NCBI GenBank assembly: GCA_026386995.1
Contig: JAPLMO010000301.1
Span: forward strand, 1-9,301
From: Planctomycetota bacterium
GTDB lineage: Bacteria; Planctomycetota; Phycisphaerae; FEN-1346
DNA: 9,301 nt
Reading direction: 5' to 3'
The notes beneath the pieces are model-generated. The model was not told the DNA's origin, made no database searches, and saw only the letters and a program-made list of their open reading frames with translations. Shown here in pieces: positions 641 through 9,301 of this stretch. Numbering within the stretch: position 1 is the stretch's first letter; the number at the start of each line of letters is the position of its first letter. Both the position numbers and the translations under genes were made by a program.

Positions 641-654
641 AAATTCGCGAATTT
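641..654. promoter_or_regulatory. AAATTCGCGAATTT palindrome, possible operator
   Basis: This is a perfect 14-bp palindrome within a short AT-rich dip (about 632-660) in GC-rich surroundings, roughly 90 bases before the preferred start of the sigma factor gene. It may be an operator or part of a promoter. A GGAAAT (639-644) followed by CGTT (657-660) loosely recalls ECF promoter elements, but the 12-base gap is shorter than usual, so I do not claim a promoter. Confidence 0.35.
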
Positions 655-743
655 TTCGTTTGCGTGTGCGTTTCAAGCAGAGGAAAGTCAGTGCATCGGA
701 GGCCAGTCTTCATCAACGGTCCATTCGGGGACAACTGCCACGC

Positions 744-1256
744 GTGAACCGGCCGAGCGAACAACAAGTTACCGCATGGTATCCGCGGTTGTTTCGCACT
801 GCGTTGCGATTGACCGGCAATGCCGAGGATGCCGCCGACCTCACCCAGCAGGCCTTCTGCAAGGCTCTCGGCACATGGGACCGGTTTGACGGAGCGGCCC
901 TTGCAACCACATGGCTTCACCAGATTCTGCTCAACTGCGTCAGGGACTGGGTCCGCCGACGGGCGGTTCGAAACGCCCCGCAAGTCGAGGAATGGGATCT
1001 TCTGCCTGCCATTGACGATGCCCCGGAAGGCCGCGAGAGGATCGAAAAGCAGGAGGAGGGGGCCGCGGTCCGCAGTGCGGTTGAGGGGCTCCCTGCCGGG
1101 GTCCGCAGTGCCTTGGTGGCCACGGTTATCGACGGGTATTCATACTCGGAGGCGGCCGAGTTGCTCCAGGTGCCGGTTGGGACAATTGCGTCGCGCGTTT
1201 ATCGGGCGCGGACCCTTTTGCGAGCCGCAATGGGCGATGCAACGGAAGAGGTGTAA
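744..1256 (+). CDS. ECF-type RNA polymerase sigma factor
   Basis: This is a small sigma-70 family factor of the extracytoplasmic function group, which directs RNA polymerase to a dedicated set of promoters. Counting from GTG at 744 (170 residues), region 2 spans about 12-75: WYPRLFRTALRLTGN, then DAADLTQQAF (2.2 core) and TTWLHQILLNCVRDWVRRR (2.3-2.4). Region 4 spans about 112-160, with the helix-turn-helix GYSYSEAAELLQVPVGTIASR followed by VYRARTLLR. There is no extra C-terminal domain. The frame stays open upstream, with GTG codons at 666 and 627, but those residues look unlike sigma factors and cover an AT-rich palindrome, so I prefer 744. The ribosome site there (GGGGA near 727-731) is poor, and the start is uncertain. 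The next gene begins two bases after the stop, which suggests co-regulation with its membrane partner. Confidence 0.9.
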   Translation: MNRPSEQQVTAWYPRLFRTALRLTGNAEDAADLTQQAFCKALGTWDRFDGAALATTWLHQILLNCVRDWVRRRAVRNAPQVEEWDLLPAIDDAPEGRERIEKQEEGAAVRSAVEGLPAGVRSALVATVIDGYSYSEAAELLQVPVGTIASRVYRARTLLRAAMGDATEEV

Positions 1257-1258
1257 CC

Positions 1259-2170
1259 ATGACCCAGGATGACACGCATCATGCCGATACGGCCGAGCGT
1301 CTTCAGGCGCTCCTGTCGGGAAGTCTCTCGCCCGCCGAAATGCGCCACGTGCTGGCGATGGTGGCCCGCGACGACGGCGCGAGGCGGATGCTCGACGAGA
1401 TGTTGGCACTGGAGCGCACGGTCCGCGCGGCCTACGGGTATGACCGCACGGAGGAGAAGATGAGGGACTCGCTTGCTTCCCTCCTGGCTTCGCTTCGAGC
1501 GGGCGGGATTCCCGCTGAAAAGGAGCGGCTTCGTGCTTCGCGCCGACCGGCCTTCAGGGTGCGGCGAGTGCTGGGCTCGCTGGCCGCATCGGTGGTTGTC
1601 GCCGCTTCGCTGTACGCGGCCATCTCGTCGCACCTCCTGAACCGGTCGATGCAGACCCAACTCAGCCAGGTCCCGGGTTCCGCCGCGCTGCCCAAGGTAA
1701 CCGAGACCGAAAGGGCCGGTTATAGCCGCATCTGGAGCGAGATCGCCCAGGCCGCCAGCGGTCCGAAACCGTGGATTCTCCTCTCGAACGGCGGGGGCGA
1801 GTTCGGATATCTCCCGTCGCCGTCCGCAGGAGCGGGAGAGGAGCGGCTCCTTCTTGTCAGATGCCTCGTCACGACAGGCGACGACGGGCGAGTCCAGACG
1901 ATCAACCTGCTGGTGCCGGCTCGGAGGAACCTCAGGCTGTCGCTTCCCGGAATCACCCACTTGGCCGGTCAGCCGGTGGCCTGCGACATCGCCATGTACG
2001 CCGACTCGGCAACCGTCGGGCTGACGGTGGGCAAGGGCTTAGCCGACGCCGTGGGCGTTCGGGGCCGCGTCGGCTTTGGCAACCAGTCAGTAGAGATCGG
2101 CGAGTTCCTCCTCGGCGGAAAGCCGATGCGCGTCGTGGTGCAAGCGGTGCCACTGGGCGCGGTTGGCTAG
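1259..2170 (+). CDS. Single-pass membrane protein, putative anti-sigma factor
   Basis: This 303-residue protein probably holds the adjacent sigma factor inactive at the inner membrane (inference from position and layout). The cytoplasmic part (about 1-103) opens with LLSGSLSPAEMRHVLAMVARDD, resembling the N-terminal helices of anti-sigma factors, and is basic just before the membrane (RRPAFRVRR). One transmembrane segment follows at about 104-126. Then comes an outside domain of about 175 residues with no recognised family, ending in beta-like sequence. The HxxxCxxC zinc motif of many anti-sigma factors is absent. The start is well supported by GAGGTG (1248-1253) five bases before ATG. The TAG stop lies inside the inverted-repeat element at 2167-2305, so the natural C-terminus may have been altered by its insertion. 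It could instead be an unrelated membrane sensor. Confidence 0.75.
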   Translation: MTQDDTHHADTAERLQALLSGSLSPAEMRHVLAMVARDDGARRMLDEMLALERTVRAAYGYDRTEEKMRDSLASLLASLRAGGIPAEKERLRASRRPAFRVRRVLGSLAASVVVAASLYAAISSHLLNRSMQTQLSQVPGSAALPKVTETERAGYSRIWSEIAQAASGPKPWILLSNGGGEFGYLPSPSAGAGEERLLLVRCLVTTGDDGRVQTINLLVPARRNLRLSLPGITHLAGQPVACDIAMYADSATVGLTVGKGLADAVGVRGRVGFGNQSVEIGEFLLGGKPMRVVVQAVPLGAVG

Positions 2171-2305
2171 AGCAGTTCACGCTTGACTGTAGCGAGTGGG
2201 TGCGCGGTGGGCAGTCTTGCCCACCGCACCGCCTCTCGACATTCCGCGCGGCGGGCAGGACTGCCCGCCGCGCGAGGGGCTACAAGCAAGCGTGAACTGC
2301 CCTAG
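2167..2305. repeat. 139-bp inverted-repeat element with two inner hairpins
   Basis: Terminal inverted repeats of 27 bp (2167-2193 and 2279-2305) share the core GCAGTTCACGCTTG and differ at 3 positions; both ends begin with CTAG. Inside are two strong hairpins. The first is GGTGGGCA/TGCCCACC (2206-2213 with 2218-2225), extended by GGTGC/GCACC. The second is a perfect 14-bp stem (2245-2258 with 2261-2274), extended by GCCTCTCG with CGAGGGGC. Folded, this gives a cloverleaf-like shape. It resembles a MITE or REP-type element. It includes the stop codon of the upstream gene and separates the regulatory pair from the exported-protein genes. Confidence 0.85.
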
Positions 2306-2336
2306 GGGACCGCGGTTGGGCAAAAGGAGACGACCC

Positions 2337-4346
2337 ATGAGTAAAGTAATGTTATCGTGGCTGCCGGTGGCGATGGTCGCATTTGCCGCAGCAGTTGTTT
2401 GGGCCGCTGACGCACCTCCCGTGGGCACGGCAACCACCGCGAGTGCCCCGGCCGCAACCGGCGACGCCGCTGCGGCAAAGGCGGCCCTGGTCACCGTTGC
2501 CGTCCTGGACTATGAGGCGGCTTCCCCGGGCAACCCTGAACTTGGGTCGCAGATTGCCGAGATCATGACCGCGCGGCTGAGTGTCGAGGACGGGCTGGAC
2601 CTGGTGGAGCGCGCCAAACTCGGCCAGGTCCTGAAGGAGCATCACCTGCCGCTCGTCGGCCTGGCCGACCAGCAGCAAGCCGCCCAGATCGGCAAACTCC
2701 TCGGGGCGAAACTGCTCGTCATGGGCAAGGCCTTCATGATGGACTCCAAGTTGATGATCGTCACGAAGGTCGTCGGCGTCGAGACCGGCCTCGTCAAGGG
2801 AACCCTGCGCTCGGTTGAGCAGAGCAAGCCCCTTTCAGAGGCCGTTGCCTCGGTGTCGGAAGACGTGGCCGCCCTGGTCCGGCGGGATGCGGCCAAACTC
2901 CTTCCGGCCGACGTGAAACTGGAAGACCCGGTTGCACAGATACGCAAGGACCTCGGCGACCGGCCCCGGCCCACGGTGGCCGTCATCATCCCCGAGCAGC
3001 ACCGGACCCGCGTGGTCATCGACCCGGCCGTGGAGACGGAGATCAAGCACCTTTTGGTGGAGTGCGGCTTCCGGGTCCTCGATACCGGCCGCAACGACCT
3101 GGCCGACTGGGCCAAGGGCATGATGCAAGGGCAGAAGGCGCCGTGGCCGGCGGCCCTGGCCGACGCCGACCTCATCGTCGTGGGCGAGGCGTTCAGCGAG
3201 TTTGCCCTCAGGACCGGCGACCTGGTGACCTGCGCCGCCCGGGCCGAGATCAACCTCATCAGCCGCCACAACGGCGAAATTCTGCTGGCCGACCGCGATA
3301 CCCAGCGTGCCATTGACCTGGCCGAGGCCATCGCCGGGAAGACCGCCCTTCAGAAGGCCGGCCGACGGCTGGGCGTGACCGTTTGCCGGCGGCTGGTGAC
3401 GTACAAGGGTCCGATCCTTCCGCCGCCTGCGCAACCGGCCCCGGCTGCGACCCCCGCCGCCGCGCCGTCGCCGCCCGCGAAGGGACCGGCGGGCGAAACG
3501 GGGCCAGCCGGTCCGACGGCGTCCGCCAAGCGGACCGTCTTCGCGGCACTGTTCGAAAACGAAACCGGCCAAGAGCAGTACGACCCCGCCGCCGCGGGCA
3601 TGGGCGACCTTGTGGCCGTGTTGCTGGCCGAGAGAGAGAATGTCCGCGTCGTGGAGCGGCAGCGGCTCGAGGCCCTCACGGACGAGCAGGCCCGAGCCCT
3701 CAAGGGTCTGACGGGCGAGGCGCACGCCATCAAGGCCGGCAAACTCTTCAAGGCCGATACGGTCATCACGGGCAGGCTATTCCTCCTGGAAGGCAAAATG
3801 ACCGTCAGCGCCAAGGCCATCGACATCGCCACGGAGCGCATCGTGGCATCGGACCAGATGTCGGGCCGCCCGGAGGACATCTTCGAGGTGGCCCTCCAAC
3901 TGGCGGGCAAACTGGCGAAGCAGATGGAATGGCCGCTGCCAAAGATCGACCTCTCGCAGATCGACAAGTCGCCCGTCGCCAGCCTGCACTTCGCCAAGGC
4001 CCTCAGCCACTACTATGCGGGGAACATGGACGAGGCCATTATGCAGTTCATGCGGACGATCGACCTCGACCCGAACTACACCGAGGTGCACTACTGGATG
4101 GGCCTGTGCTACGAAAAACTGGGCGAGCCGACGCACGCGGCCATCGACTTCGAGGTCTATCTGAAGGAGCATCCGAAGGGCAAGTACGCCCAGGACGCGG
4201 CGAAGCGGCTGGCCGTTGCCACGCAGAAGGCCGCCTCCGAGGCCGTCCCGCGCCTGGTGCCGGCCACCGTCCCCGCGCCCGCGGCGCCGGCCAAGGCCGT
4301 TACGCCGCCGCAGAAGGTTCCGACCGCCGAGGGGACCGCGAAATGA
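2337..4346 (+). CDS. Exported protein with CsgG/FlgO-like domains and TPR
   Basis: This 669-residue envelope protein probably forms assemblies or binds partners; no enzyme motif is visible. A signal peptide covers about 1-24 (MSKVMLSWLP...VVWAA). Residues 51-185 form a CsgG/FlgO-like domain: VTVAVLDYE, LGSQIAEIMTARL, LVERAKLGQVLKEH, IGKLLGAKLLVMGKAF. Residues 212-356 look like a divergent relative (PTVAVII..., ADLIVVGEAF). A Pro/Ala-rich linker (360-398) contains four Gly-X-Y triplets. Residues 399-532 are a second clear CsgG-like domain (VVERQRLEAL, KLFKADTVITGRLFLLEG). TPR-like helices follow at about 547-626 (HYYAGNMDEAIMQFMRTIDLDPN), then a Pro/Ala tail. ATG 2337 is chosen because AGGAG (2325-2329) lies seven bases upstream and a signal peptide follows. 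The stop overlaps the next start as ATGA, indicating translational coupling. Confidence 0.85.
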   Translation: MSKVMLSWLPVAMVAFAAAVVWAADAPPVGTATTASAPAATGDAAAAKAALVTVAVLDYEAASPGNPELGSQIAEIMTARLSVEDGLDLVERAKLGQVLKEHHLPLVGLADQQQAAQIGKLLGAKLLVMGKAFMMDSKLMIVTKVVGVETGLVKGTLRSVEQSKPLSEAVASVSEDVAALVRRDAAKLLPADVKLEDPVAQIRKDLGDRPRPTVAVIIPEQHRTRVVIDPAVETEIKHLLVECGFRVLDTGRNDLADWAKGMMQGQKAPWPAALADADLIVVGEAFSEFALRTGDLVTCAARAEINLISRHNGEILLADRDTQRAIDLAEAIAGKTALQKAGRRLGVTVCRRLVTYKGPILPPPAQPAPAATPAAAPSPPAKGPAGETGPAGPTASAKRTVFAALFENETGQEQYDPAAAGMGDLVAVLLAERENVRVVERQRLEALTDEQARALKGLTGEAHAIKAGKLFKADTVITGRLFLLEGKMTVSAKAIDIATERIVASDQMSGRPEDIFEVALQLAGKLAKQMEWPLPKIDLSQIDKSPVASLHFAKALSHYYAGNMDEAIMQFMRTIDLDPNYTEVHYWMGLCYEKLGEPTHAAIDFEVYLKEHPKGKYAQDAAKRLAVATQKAASEAVPRLVPATVPAPAAPAKAVTPPQKVPTAEGTAK

Positions 4347-7300
4347 GAGTCGCCGGCCGCCTCTTGCTTCTGGCCGTTGCCTTGGCCGCCTGCGCCGCGC
4401 CGTCATTGGCCGCCACGCCCGTGGCGGTCTTCAACTTCCAGATGAAGTCCGACACGCCCGACTGGAAGTGGCTGGAGAAGGGCCTCTCGGACCGCATCAC
4501 GACCGACTTCACGCGTGTCCGCGGGGTGACGGTCGTTGCCCGCGATGAGATGCAGATCATGGCCCAGGCGCTCCACTGGGTGCCGGAACTGGCCACCACC
4601 GACGCCAAGGCCGCCGGGACCATCAAGGCGCAACTCAAGATCAACACCCTTGTGACCGGCGTATACAGCGTCGAGGGGGACCGGATTCGCCTGACCGGCC
4701 AGATCATCGACGTGTCGACCCGCGAGGAGGTCGCCCGAAAGGAAATCGAAGGCCCCGCCCAGGAGGTGCTGGAACTCCAGCGTCAACTGTCGGCGGAACT
4801 CCTGTCGGTAGTGGTCAACAAGCCCGCCGCAGGCATCCTGGCGTCCCTGCCGGTCTGGACCCGCAGCCTCCCGGCGACCAAGGCGCTGTACGAAGGCATG
4901 GATCTCTACGACCAGGGGCGGTACGCGGAGGGGTGGCTTAAGTTCCGCCAGGCCTCGAAGACCGACCCGGGGTACATGGAGGCCCAGTACTGGGTGGGCA
5001 AGATGTATTACTTCATGGACCGCTACGAACACGCCCGGCTGGCGCTGGAAAAGTTCATGTACCTCGACACGACGCACCCGCGCGTCGGCGACACGATCAT
5101 GGAGTTTGCGCACACCTATGAGTCTCGCGGACTGCCGGCGGATGCGCTCCTGAAACTTTACGACGATCTCGGCCGGCGGTACCCTGAGGCTCGCCTCTGG
5201 GAGGGCTATGGCCCCTACGGCCGGTTAGGCTGGATCGATTGCCAGGAGTGGGCCAAGTACAAGTCGGCCCAGGTGCTCTTGCAGACCGGCCGCGCCAAGG
5301 AGGCCGCCATCCTGGCGGCTCCGGCGACGACTTTCGTCAACTCCAACATCGAGCCGCCGGTCGGCCTTATGAGCCTCCTGCGGCACAACGCGCTGACGGC
5401 CGAGCAGTTCGGGCCCGAGGTGATTTCCAATATTCACTCCCACAGCGACATTGTGCGGTTCACGGCCGACGGCCGCGAGGCCGTGATCGAGTTGTCGCAG
5501 CAGATGCGCATCCTGGGCCGGGAACAGAGAAACTTCGACCAGACCGCCATTTTCGACAGGGAAGAAACGGAGTTCTTCAGGTACCTTGTTGCGCCATCGG
5601 GGTACGTTTTCAAGTCGCTCCGCTTTTACCCGCTCGGCAGCGGCGATGATGCCAATATGGAGGTGAGATTGCGGCTCTTCGATGGCTACGATGCGCCCCG
5701 GTCGGCGCCCGTTGCGACGGCGCGAAAGAGCGGCATAGTGTTTGAGCCTTGCCCGCGGAGGGGCATTATGGTCGCCCACTGCACCCTGCGCGTGACCGGC
5801 CCGACGAGTTCGCCGGTGGTTGTGAGCGGTGCCCGCATCGCGGCGGCTCTGGAGAAGATGGTCGACCCTGGGGCCGTCGACGTGTCGTGCGCCGAGACGG
5901 CCTACTTTCGCGTCGAAGTCGACGGCGTGTTGGCGCGGTGGTTCCACGGCCTGGCGGGGCCGCTGGCGCCCGGCGAGCATACGGTGCGGCTCTCCCCGAT
6001 CTATGCCGACTCGCCGTACGGCGAGTGCACCGCAAAAGTTACGGTTTCGGCCGGCGAGGTGTCGCGGTTGCCGCTTCACCTGCCGTGGAAGGAAGGCGGC
6101 GGCTGGTCGGGTTGGACCCACGTGACGGTGCCGGACGTGTATCCCGGCCTCGCTCTCAAACTCAATCATACGCCTGGGGCGCCGGCCGTTCTGGCAGGCG
6201 ACGAGGACCTGCGGCTGGTGTGGTCGCGCGGCGGCGACCTGTGGTCCGCCGTCAGCACAGACGGCAAGGTTTTCTCGGAGCCGCGGAAACTGGACCTGCC
6301 GGTCTCAAGCGGCTGGATGGAGGGCAACCCGCGGCTCATGCGCGACGCTCGGGGGCGGTTTGTCCTGACGTTCGTGTCGGACCGCGATGCCCAGCACCGC
6401 ACGCTGGCATACAGCGCGTGGTCGCGAGATTTCGTGCACTGGAGCGCCCCGGCGGCAATCTCGAACCGTTCCATTCGCGAACGCTGGGCCGTCATGGCCG
6501 ACGATCGCGGCCGGACCCTGTGGGTCGAATCCCAAGATGGATTGTTGCGCATCTATGCCACCGGCGACGGCATCCGCTGGGAGGAACTCGCCGCCCTCAA
6601 GTCCGCGGAACCCAAGGGAAGCCTCTTGTCCCCCCACCTGTTTCAACGGCCCGACGGGCAGTACGAATTGCTGGCAACGAGCGGCAGGGTCTACTTGAGC
6701 GCCGATAAGCCCGACCCGAAAGACTGGCACGGCTGCGTGCGGTACCTGAGCGGCGACGCCAAGGTGTGGTCGCAGCCCCAACGTCTCTGGGATTCGCCGG
6801 AACTGCCGTACTCATGGGCCGGGGCCGCACGCGGCGATAAAGGCGCGGTTATCCTGGGTTTCGGCTCGGAGCGTGCCAGCGGGCTCACGAGCCTCTTCGC
6901 GGAACTGCCCGATGGCACGTGGAAGGCATCGGGCACGTTTCGCGGCTTGATACCCGGCGCCGGGGGGGCGATAGCATACCATCCGCGGTGGGGCTACGTC
7001 ATTGCCTGGATCATGCCCGAGGAGGACGACGGGTTTAACCGGCATCCGGCCTACGGTCCGTTCGTTATGCGCAATCCCTCTCTCGATGCCGTGATGGCGG
7101 CTCCCGGGGTGCGCATCGAACCGAAAAAACAGCCGCCGCCTCGCACGGATATCAAGCGTTTGCTCCAAGTGAGTCACGGAGATGGGCCGGTCACGTATGA
7201 GGAACTCAAGGAACCCGTTCGCACTGAGGGACCGACTTTGCCCCCGCCCGCGCCGGCGACACGCATCGGCGAACTGGCCTACGTCCGGGCCGCTCCGCCC

Positions 7301-8284
7301 GACGACATAGACACCGAAAGCATCGAGGTGAAAGGAAGGGAGAACTTCAAGAAGCCTGCCGCCGACTCCGGGACGGTCAACCCGAACGCCCTCGTCGTGA
7401 CCCTTCGACGCGCCCCGCTCGTGCTGGCCGTGGCCCTCGACAACGACAAGCCGGAGGCCCGGACCTTCAATCTTGCCCGCCTCGACTTCACCGGCAAGGG
7501 CGACTTCAAAAACGCGACCATCATTCCGCAGGAGCGCGCCGGGTTCGAATATCGCAAGAAAGAAGTCTTTTACAATTTCTCAAAAGACCGCGCCAATGTG
7601 AAGGTCGGCGAGCGGGTGTACTCGCTGGCCGTGTTCGTGTCTTACACCGACACCCCGAACGAGCGGACCCTTGAGGTCAAGATCGATGCCTCGGCTGAAG
7701 GGGTCTGTATGTTCGGATCCAAGGCGCACAAGATACGTTTCTGCGACGGGACGTCGAACCTGCGTATCGACGATGTCGCCACGCCGGTTTTCGAGGACGG
7801 CCGGTACAAGAAGAAGGAGGTCGGCGATTCGTTTTTCGTCGACCTCGGCAACGGGAAGTTCCGGAAGTTCGCGTACGGCCTGTACGGCCACCCGGTGGCC
7901 GTGGACGGCGCGGTCTGGAACGTCAAGATATCTCCCGACGGCTCGCAGGTGACCGCCGAGCCCTACCCGGGCCCGACCGGCATGGTGCATCTCGATCACC
8001 CGGCGTGGCGGGCGCTGATGGCCAGGCCGGGTATGATCATGGTGCTCTACGGCGATGCGGGCGCGATACCGCTGCCCGCGGGCCGTTTCGAATTGAATGA
8101 CCTTGAGGAATGGCTCACCCCCGATGCCGGCGAACCCCGCGCGAACCTCTCGGTACACAGTTCGAGCGGCGGGGACTTCATCGACATCAAGCCCGGGGAG
8201 ACCCTCGAACTGGCGGCCGGGTCGCCCGTCGTCGTCTGGGTCAAGGCCACGCAGGAGGGCGACACCGTGCGACTGGCGTTATGA
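4343..8284 (+). CDS. Large exported protein: CsgG-like, TPR, Asp-box propeller, C-terminal beta domain
   Basis: This is a 1313-residue protein in the envelope or outside the cell. A signal peptide covers about 1-23. A CsgG/FlgO-like domain follows at about 25-160 (TPVAVFNFQ, VVARDEMQIM, INTLVTGVYSVEGDRIRLTG), and TPR-like helices at about 178-245 (LYDQGRYAEGWLKFRQASKTDPG). Residues 250-600 are mixed, the latter part beta-rich. Residues 615-915 look like a sialidase-type beta-propeller with Asp-box-like repeats near 638-644 (STDGKVF), 694-700 (SRDFVHW), 740-746 (TGDGIRW) and 803-809 (SGDAKVW). No sialidase catalytic set is evident, so binding is as likely as catalysis. A Pro-rich linker (about 928-972) leads to a beta-rich C-terminus. 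GAGGGGA (4329-4335) precedes ATG by seven bases. The reading frame continues past TGA 8282-8284 with apparent coding sequence, so the protein may be truncated. Confidence 0.85.
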   Translation: MRVAGRLLLLAVALAACAAPSLAATPVAVFNFQMKSDTPDWKWLEKGLSDRITTDFTRVRGVTVVARDEMQIMAQALHWVPELATTDAKAAGTIKAQLKINTLVTGVYSVEGDRIRLTGQIIDVSTREEVARKEIEGPAQEVLELQRQLSAELLSVVVNKPAAGILASLPVWTRSLPATKALYEGMDLYDQGRYAEGWLKFRQASKTDPGYMEAQYWVGKMYYFMDRYEHARLALEKFMYLDTTHPRVGDTIMEFAHTYESRGLPADALLKLYDDLGRRYPEARLWEGYGPYGRLGWIDCQEWAKYKSAQVLLQTGRAKEAAILAAPATTFVNSNIEPPVGLMSLLRHNALTAEQFGPEVISNIHSHSDIVRFTADGREAVIELSQQMRILGREQRNFDQTAIFDREETEFFRYLVAPSGYVFKSLRFYPLGSGDDANMEVRLRLFDGYDAPRSAPVATARKSGIVFEPCPRRGIMVAHCTLRVTGPTSSPVVVSGARIAAALEKMVDPGAVDVSCAETAYFRVEVDGVLARWFHGLAGPLAPGEHTVRLSPIYADSPYGECTAKVTVSAGEVSRLPLHLPWKEGGGWSGWTHVTVPDVYPGLALKLNHTPGAPAVLAGDEDLRLVWSRGGDLWSAVSTDGKVFSEPRKLDLPVSSGWMEGNPRLMRDARGRFVLTFVSDRDAQHRTLAYSAWSRDFVHWSAPAAISNRSIRERWAVMADDRGRTLWVESQDGLLRIYATGDGIRWEELAALKSAEPKGSLLSPHLFQRPDGQYELLATSGRVYLSADKPDPKDWHGCVRYLSGDAKVWSQPQRLWDSPELPYSWAGAARGDKGAVILGFGSERASGLTSLFAELPDGTWKASGTFRGLIPGAGGAIAYHPRWGYVIAWIMPEEDDGFNRHPAYGPFVMRNPSLDAVMAAPGVRIEPKKQPPPRTDIKRLLQVSHGDGPVTYEELKEPVRTEGPTLPPPAPATRIGELAYVRAAPPDDIDTESIEVKGRENFKKPAADSGTVNPNALVVTLRRAPLVLAVALDNDKPEARTFNLARLDFTGKGDFKNATIIPQERAGFEYRKKEVFYNFSKDRANVKVGERVYSLAVFVSYTDTPNERTLEVKIDASAEGVCMFGSKAHKIRFCDGTSNLRIDDVATPVFEDGRYKKKEVGDSFFVDLGNGKFRKFAYGLYGHPVAVDGAVWNVKISPDGSQVTAEPYPGPTGMVHLDHPAWRALMARPGMIMVLYGDAGAIPLPAGRFELNDLEEWLTPDAGEPRANLSVHSSSGGDFIDIKPGETLELAAGSPVVVWVKATQEGDTVRLAL

Positions 8285-8533
8285 ACGACCGATGTGACGG
8301 GGCGGCGGTGGGTGGATGTAAGGTCGGCGCAGGACCAGTGGGCGCCGCCCGCGGTCGTCACCATTCGCGATGCCGCGGGCCGCAAGGTCGCCACCTGCAA
8401 ATTGGAGGGGGGTGATTTCACCGAGGAATGGCGCGTCCCGGCCGGCATGAAGGGCACGTTTACCGCCACGGTGGCTTTCGACCCCTGCGGCTTCGCCGTT
8501 CAGCCGAAGCCGACGACCTTCGAGGTGAAATGA
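8285..8533 (+). pseudogene. Detached C-terminal segment of the preceding gene
   Basis: These 82 codons continue the same reading frame directly after the TGA at 8282-8284 and end at TGA 8531-8533. The translation looks real and beta-sandwich-like, for example APPAVVTIRDAAGRKVATC, EEWRVPAGMKGTFTATVAF and FDPCGFAVQPKPTTFEV. A separate 79-residue gene could start at GTG 8294, but there is no ribosome binding site before it and no signal peptide, although the sequence looks like part of an exported protein. The simplest reading is that a nonsense change (for example CGA to TGA) split one gene. Alternatives are stop readthrough, a sequencing error, or a genuine small protein. Confidence 0.6.
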
Positions 8534-8534
8534 C

Positions 8535-8798
8535 ATGCGCCACACCCCTGGGCTTGCGTTCTGTGCACGGTTGCTCATTCTTCTTCTCCCCGGCGCGGTC
8601 TCGGCCGCCACGCCGGTGGCCGTCTTCAACTTCCAGATGAAGTCCGACACGCCGGACTGGAAGTGGCTGGAGAAAGGGCTGGCGGACCGCATCACGACCG
8701 ACTTCGTCAGCGAAAGGGTGTGCGTCCCGAAAACTCCGTCCGCGGTCTGCATGGTGAGTGACGGGTGTCAGCGGGTGTTATCTGCGGCAACCAGATGA
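8535..8798 (+). pseudogene. Truncated paralogue of the 4343 gene (N-terminus only)
   Basis: A start with a good ribosome site (GAGGTG 8522-8527, seven bases before ATG 8535) leads into a signal peptide (about 1-24) and then the CsgG-like N-terminus found in the gene at 4343. Codons 24-57 (8604-8705) match codons 23-56 of that gene (4409-4510): by my count 95 of 102 bases are identical, and 33 of 34 residues. Similarity stops abruptly after TTDF at 8705. The remaining 30 residues (VSERVCVPKTPSAV...) have no family resemblance and run to a chance stop. The signal peptides differ, so this is an older duplicate and not a recent copy of the whole start. The product, if made, would be a non-functional exported peptide. 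Confidence 0.8.
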
Positions 8799-8967
8799 CG
8801 GATTCTGGCGCGATGCCGTCCTTTCTGCCTGGAAGACCTCAATCGTAGCGGCGCAGAGCATGGCAGACAAGAGACGTAAGTGCTTGTAGAATAAGGCGGA
8901 CGGAATTCTTGGGAGGAACAGCGGCTCTTTTACCTTGCACGCACCGCCGGCGGCTACAAGGTGTTCG
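8706..8967. other. Junction region after the gene break
   Basis: This stretch joins the truncated paralogue to the oppositely oriented PEP-CTERM gene. It has no convincing gene and shows no similarity to the matching part of the intact copy. It contains the isolated ACGTAAGTG half-site (8874-8882) and a 10-bp palindrome CCGCCGGCGG (8944-8953). It probably marks an insertion or rearrangement boundary. No clear intrinsic terminator was seen between the two convergent genes. Confidence 0.5.
8874..8882. repeat. Isolated ACGTAAGTG half of the 33-bp repeat
   Basis: The same 9 bases that form the left arm of the repeats at 123 and 359 recur here. No matching right arm follows at the expected distance. 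The sequence is embedded in a 5-bp inverted pair ACAAG (8867-8871) and CTTGT (8883-8887). It may be a degenerate member of the family, or chance. Confidence 0.4.
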
Positions 8968-9301
8968 TCAGCGGCGGCGGCGGCCCCTGGCGGCCGCAAG
9001 CAGCCAGCCGGCAGCCAGCAGGCACAGGGTGCCCGGCTCGGGGGCGTACCACGCCAGGGCGTACGGCTCGGCGACGGACGGGCCGAGGTCGTAGTTCTCG
9101 CCGGTCCACTTGACGCGGAGCAGGTAGTAGCCGTCGGCGGGCGCGCTGAAGCGGAGGTGCTCGACGTTGTTGTAGAGGCCGGCCGACTCCGCCACGAGGG
9201 CATCGGCCGGGTCGCCGCCGCCGGCCAGTTTCCAGACCTCCAGGTCGAGGTTGGCGAACTGGACCTCATCCGCCGCCAAGCCGCTGACGGCCCGGTCCAC
9301 G
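8968..9301 (-). CDS. PEP-CTERM surface protein, C-terminal part
   Basis: Only the last 110 or so residues are in the window; the gene enters from the right edge. The C-terminus carries a PEP-CTERM sorting signal: PEPGTL, a hydrophobic segment LCLLAAGWLLAAA, and a basic end RGRRRR. In known systems this tail is recognised by an exosortase, and the protein is sorted to the cell surface. The preceding part (about residues 5-85, e.g. NLDLEVWKL, LVAESAGLYNNVEHLRF, APADGYYLLRVKW, ALAWYA) resembles the beta-sandwich domain often found at the C-terminus of secreted peptidases and other surface proteins, so a secreted enzyme is possible but cannot be confirmed here. The TGA stop is at 8970-8968 on the minus strand. 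The gene points toward the truncated paralogue. Confidence 0.85.
   Translation of the reverse strand, partial: VDRAVSGLAADEVQFANLDLEVWKLAGGGDPADALVAESAGLYNNVEHLRFSAPADGYYLLRVKWTGENYDLGPSVAEPYALAWYAPEPGTLCLLAAGWLLAAARGRRRR

Follow-up and report, generated by a model that had tools for sequence, protein, structure and literature searches.

The locus described here has its closest known counterparts among operons of extracytoplasmic function (ECF) sigma factors and among proteins of the CsgG/FlgO/LpoB/PelC fold. In operons with class I anti-sigma factors, a sigma factor with regions 2 and 4 is followed by a protein with one transmembrane segment and an extracytoplasmic domain, and an ECF-like promoter pattern accompanies them. 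Concerning the fold, an excerpt from PMC7304575 describes the CsgG pore as a nonamer with a 36-stranded barrel, and an excerpt from PMC5936718 presents an alpha/beta plus helical periplasmic domain of CadC as a sensor. We analysed contig JAPLMO010000301.1 of a Planctomycetota bacterium (assembly GCA_026386995.1; the whole stretch of 9,301 nt is called the window), in which an ECF sigma factor, a putative one-pass anti-sigma factor and two proteins named CsgG1 and CsgG2 are encoded. The cluster belongs among the ECF sigma operons, as a variant with a new set of partners: whereas the sigma factor, its membrane partner and an ECF-like promoter pattern are shared with the known operons, the pair here keeps the fixed company of a gene X and of CsgA, and in most loci also of CsgB and CsgG2. 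It is conserved in planctomycete bacteria and apparently undescribed so far, in agreement with an earlier first-pass annotation that knew of no system with this set; in the open-licence literature (titles and abstract openings) no paper was found on planctomycete ECF factors with CsgG, FlgO, TolB or tetratricopeptide repeat (TPR) partners, and single members are already labelled "TolB-like protein" (JGI) or "CsgG/HfaB family protein" (NCBI). Our preferred reading, to which we give about an even chance, is that of an ECF-sigma-controlled operon building a periplasmic scaffold or receptor assembly that is not a pore.

Open reading frames and Pfam place the sigma factor, the protein with one transmembrane segment, CsgG1 and CsgG2 in this order on the plus strand of the window (Table 1), with CsgG1 coupled to CsgG2 by an ATGA overlap, which confirms the arrangement read in the first-pass annotation. 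CsgG1 is the counterpart of two proteins, CsgA and CsgB, of other genomes; it is a single gene in the window and in L001, while L002 and L003 have two adjacent genes. Sigma-70 regions 2 and 4 are both present in the sigma factor according to Pfam, and its identity to three syntenic homologues is 50-56%. Its frame is open further upstream, with an alternative start at 627.

Scanning one genome for each species gave the first relatives, three loci (L001-L003), all in planctomycete metagenome-assembled genomes of one order and each with sigma, anti-sigma and X before CsgG1 or CsgA/CsgB. In a sample of 397 genomes of the class, in which as a rule five candidates per genome were scored, the anti-sigma profile matched at E 1e-15 or better in eight (G001, G002, G003, G397, G407, G417, G423 and G436). 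All eight carry sigma, anti-sigma, X and CsgA in that order, with sigma directly adjoining anti-sigma (in G397 sigma is cut by the contig start), so that the order is not unique to one genome; among these strong matches the sigma pair is in no case found apart from CsgA, and four genomes with weak matches are discussed below. CsgB follows CsgA or is fused to it in six of the eight, and in G417 CsgB and CsgG2 lie on a different contig; CsgG2 was found in five, the contigs of G397 and G423 ending in or just past CsgB. Two more genomes come up against contig ends: G427 is consistent with the order, although only the last part of its anti-sigma gene is on the contig, and in G402 CsgA lies near a contig end. 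Where measured, cluster genes are separated by short gaps or joined by ATGA overlaps. The CsgG2 profile was met in 3 of 392 genomes of a phylum sample, scored as a rule with two candidates per genome (G275 only in the CsgG part), and in 5 of 38 genomes of one order. Other weak matches were two further places in G002 (anti-sigma) and one in G220 (CsgA).

The search with CsgA in a second class matched 5 of 75 genomes, four of them nearly over the full length. In three of these four (G389, G780 and G782) a sigma factor and a putative anti-sigma factor stand upstream of CsgA, the contig of the fourth, G783, being cut off. The anti-sigma equivalent is of the zf-HC2 type in two of the three, G389 and G780. 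Between anti-sigma and CsgA the X profile matched in G782 (E 2.9e-11) and weakly in G389 (3.7e-6), where further genes lie between CsgA and CsgB; it gave no match there in G780, which has a 586-codon frame instead. Judging from these sequence comparisons, the gene order is old. Sigma, anti-sigma and CsgA also show correlated distances over 8-9 loci (r 0.76-0.81, p 0.002-0.024), as would be seen in a unit inherited together.

The sigma pair is probably a self-regulating switch for outside signals that stands ahead of the large, probably exported proteins. Its anti-sigma member has a single hydrophobic segment in all nine loci. Upstream of sigma, the pattern A[AG][ATG]TT-N13-16-CGT[CT] ends 53-95 nt before the start codon in six of seven loci with upstream sequence, a count that overstates the case since L002 and L070 are close relatives, and that was obtained with a post hoc pattern, drawn up from the tested regions after a stricter GGAAC-type ECF pattern had given no match in the same seven. 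Over 500 shuffles the count averaged 0.33 and never exceeded 3, so that none attained six of seven. The survey left out L001 (masked upstream) and L069 and L025 (which begin inside the operon). The unchanged pattern also matched in L074, a locus that had played no part in drawing it up, with AATTTCCCCCCTGCCCATGCGTC at close to the usual distance; in the window it matches once only, at 650.

Concerning CsgG1, the structure model predicts three CsgG-like domains (residues 52-188, 213-354 and 399-529) followed by TPRs (544-633), in keeping with the extra domains and the CsgG-like fold proposed in the first-pass annotation. Pfam recognises CsgG at 59.8 bits against a cut-off of 20.8 and also confirms the TPRs; among the Foldseek matches the top three are CsgG pre-pore chains, and LpoB, PelC, TolB, FlgT and CadC are found as well. 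These matches, together with middle-domain strands of 13-15 residues, longer than in the other two domains, would suit a CsgG1 that oligomerises into a CsgG-like outer-membrane channel through which CsgG2 or some other substrate reaches the surface, and the long strands weigh against a non-pore assembly. However, the Pfam match, which has a second stretch as well, covers model positions 4-100 of 210 in its best one, and in relatives the best stretches likewise do not pass position 100. No barrel hairpins are predicted at their usual place in CsgG: the loops between predicted core strands have 2-5 residues, and an alignment of 32 rows has no insertion of at least 4 columns between core strands. 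Moreover, lipobox-like motifs occur in only 6 of 65 CsgG1/CsgA-type and 7 of 96 CsgG2-type proteins beginning with M (totals 69 and 105), and CsgG1 of the window has none, CsgG2 having LAAC. We consider an export channel very unlikely. Of the surface export or sensing machine first suggested for the window, envelope and sensing roles stay plausible and the export pore is not supported. The proteins resemble those of the CsgG/FlgO/LpoB/PelC fold in the predicted alpha/beta domain but differ from them in having up to three such domains per protein, attached TPRs, a rare lipobox and no predicted barrel hairpins. Other searches spoke of the TPR part: in a PDB sequence search with CsgG1 the best stretches of the 60 matches listed all lie in or just before it, and the VIA matches listed are mostly TPR chains with no CsgG among them, which is uninformative on the CsgG-like domains.

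CsgG2 has a signal-peptide-like start, a CsgG-like domain at residues ~25-160 and a propeller at ~584-921. It remains below the Pfam cut-offs, and a PDB sequence search with it gave nothing significant. The two CsgG proteins are predicted to join domains of the CsgG/LpoB/PelC/TolB-N type to TPRs, CsgG2 adding a propeller head of sialidase fold, and the large cluster proteins are probably exported, as judged by eye from the N-termini of the CsgG proteins. TolB differs in that here TPRs stand between the two parts and the propeller is of the sialidase type, not the PD40 type; TolB_N had no Pfam match up to E 1. The propeller and C-terminal beta domain named in the first-pass annotation hold in the model, whereas the Asp boxes depend on the pattern, three motifs being found with a loose one and none with a stricter one. 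In structure comparison the propeller matches sialidases and GH43/GH93 enzymes, and CsgG2 could accordingly be a secreted carbohydrate-active enzyme, sialidase- or arabinanase-like, within a glycan-use locus. One relative has a weak Glyco_hydro_43 match, and a few kilobases from cluster genes there are a GH20 gene (L026 11436-14048, minus strand), a member of the sialic-acid acetylesterase family (L071 2806-4371, minus strand) and a sulfatase (L024 130-1614). However, each of these was seen in one genome, with no conserved neighbourhood as far as neighbours, surveyed unsystematically, were seen. A FRIP motif is a mark of sialidases, and FRIP/YRIP is absent from 105 of 105 proteins; unlike the propellers of GH33 sialidases and GH43/GH93 enzymes, that of CsgG2 is embedded in a TPR protein. 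The enzyme reading has a slim chance, which the glycan genes nearby raise only a little.

The way CsgG2 varies speaks for the scaffold or receptor assembly. Over 45 rows the mean top-residue frequency is 0.70 in the CsgG-like domain, 0.81 in the TPRs, 0.55 in the sandwich, 0.48 in the propeller and 0.42 in the C-terminal domain, a comparison skewed by the way in which homologues were collected, namely through words in the first 500 residues and a limited list of candidates. Some homologues end in other C-terminal parts, such as CBM9 (P0079) and ankyrin (P0105). CsgG2-type genes are repeated in G002, G003, G417, G427 and G782; in L002 they stand twice in tandem, and in G003 (L026, L027) one copy lies before sigma, another after CsgB and a third farther along. 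Conserved CsgG-like and TPR parts, varying heads and repeated copies suggest a shared dock with exchangeable heads. In such an assembly the sigma factor would transcribe the operon that encodes it; CsgG-fold and TPR parts would form a constant dock on which CsgA, CsgB and the CsgG2 paralogues come together at the envelope; propeller and C-terminal domains would bind a ligand, possibly a glycan; and a loaded or damaged state, passed on to the anti-sigma factor through its periplasmic domain, would free sigma so that more of the complex is made.

The same genes could also form a pure output operon, in which sigma answers some unrelated stress on the envelope, and the exported proteins serve in repair or in the surface layer and have no sensing role. 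This is a common design of ECF operons, and in two genomes a PD40 gene (L026) and genes with trypsin-like and PDZ domains (L029) are among the cluster genes. On the other hand, anti-sigma, X and CsgA are still grouped in L068, for which neither CsgB nor CsgG2 was found, and this suggests a closer tie of CsgA to the regulator; we regard the output operon as possible but doubtful. The L029 genes lie at 5716-9468 inside the G389 cluster, one with trypsin-like and PDZ domains and one with PDZ matches, and are a possible link to envelope stress.

A bolder form of the receptor assembly is a CadC-like sensor that has been separated from its output in the cytoplasm and is exported as a receptor of several proteins, with propeller heads that can be interchanged; it would signal through the anti-sigma factor in place of a DNA-binding domain and amplify itself. 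CadC shares the succession of an alpha/beta domain and an alpha-helical domain, with Foldseek alignments of 307 columns on chains of 322-323 residues; however, the target TM-score is only 0.28-0.29, so the order is the same but the relative placement is not matched, and the cluster proteins are separate and have no DNA-binding part (no domain of the CadC/ToxR type in CsgG1 or CsgG2 by Pfam). We think this form unlikely; if true, it would be a new kind of envelope signalling.

Several results, besides the long strands and the bias in domain conservation, weigh against the scaffold or receptor assembly. The assembly would need the exported proteins to contact the anti-sigma factor. The CsgG1 model has a predicted TM-score (pTM) of 0.46, so that it does not settle the arrangement of the domains. 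In G407 sigma, anti-sigma, X and CsgA are present but CsgB and CsgG2 were not found, and in G415, G418, G425 and G426, which have no CsgG1-type match, the search of the taxonomic order at E 0.001 gave weak N-terminal matches to the anti-sigma profile (E 7.4e-6 to 2.6e-4); these may be other anti-sigma factors. The anti-sigma protein P0002 fell into no recognised family in family searches including Pfam, and an hhalign profile comparison with the zf-HC2 type equivalent of L031 was negative (probability 1.5). The promoter-like pattern was found in none of three loci of the second class (L031, L084 and L085, the last two on the plus strand), and the correlated distances could come from common descent alone.

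It should be noted that the sigma pair is linked to a single protein set in two planctomycete classes, so that its input or output can be searched for in a defined complex. The CsgG/TolB-N fold is used here in bulk: one protein is predicted to hold three copies, the adjacent one has the fold again, and neither seems to form a pore.

Concerning gene X, relatives carry it between anti-sigma and CsgG1 or CsgA (in L003 split over two frames) and the window lacks it. Three X proteins of three had no Pfam match, and a GATase1-like structure matched only weakly (E 0.62); X is left unnamed. In its place the window has a palindrome of 157 nt with two inner hairpins (GGGCAGnnnTGCCC) and 36-nt arms at 83%; the region 2158-2340 folds as RNA at -119.9 kcal/mol (z -8.7). 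The palindrome is possibly a mobile repeat that has taken the place of X.

The window copy of CsgG2 was compared with 44 relatives in alignment A7, of which 39 are long (1272-1481 aa) and five are of a short type ending earlier (906-956 aa). Past the position of the window TGA, 38 of the 39 long relatives, including P0007 (85% identity), have 71-101 more residues, and P0029 only 2. Since the long relatives read on and 82 in-frame codons follow the TGA, CsgG2 seems to be disrupted in this record, either by a mutation or by an error of sequencing; relatives have intact copies. A second copy of its start follows, with 8603-8705 being 93% identical to 4408-4510 and a profile match of E 1.2e-23, and breaks off after 8717.

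Table 1. Positions of the cluster genes and associated features in the window
Feature	Position	Strand	Remark
ECF-promoter-like motif AATTT-N14-CGTT	650..672	+	end 71 nt before sigma start codon
ECF sigma factor, 170 aa	744..1256	+	Sigma70_r2 4.7e-14, Sigma70_r4_2 4e-13 (Pfam)
Putative one-pass anti-sigma factor, 303 aa, hydrophobic segment residues 104-122	1259..2170	+	starts 2 nt past sigma
Imperfect palindrome, two inner hairpins	2158..2314	no strand	first bases overlap anti-sigma gene end
CsgG1	2337..4346	+	three predicted CsgG-like domains and TPR
CsgG2	4343..8284	+	predicted CsgG-like domain, TPR, beta domains, sialidase-fold propeller, C-terminal beta domain
In-frame TGA ending CsgG2	8282..8284	+	frame continues in 38/39 long relatives
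Continuation of CsgG2 frame past TGA, 82 codons and stop	8285..8533	+	
Truncated second copy of CsgG2 start, frame open to 8798	8535..8735	+	repeat comparison, profile match

Smaller repeats were also seen around the operon. Palindromes around ACGTAAGTG...ACTTACGT lie upstream of it at 123-155 and 359-391, and the same 9-mer, not found in L001-L003, recurs at 8874, past the truncated copy; they are possibly a dispersed repeat linked to the break after 8717.

Among the neighbours, proteins of ~950-1800 aa with a CsgG-like start follow CsgA in L068 (8102-13555), L072 (1-2847) and L029 (2460-5645), and the same type occurs some kilobases past CsgA in L071 (15171-18548). Proteins of ~786-906 aa adjoin CsgG2-type copies in L003 (4316-6739) and L024 (9837-12197 and 15089-17806); they look like HEAT plus PDZ proteins by eye, and none of the three had a Pfam match. 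Near the G003 cluster, L027 has three tandem genes of ~360 aa (12740-16064, minus strand), and a scan of one of them showed FGE-sulfatase and PEP-CTERM domains. In the window itself, 8968-9300 on the minus strand encodes the C-terminal part of a protein with a PEP-CTERM match (PF07589, 1.7e-4), whose gene extends beyond the window.

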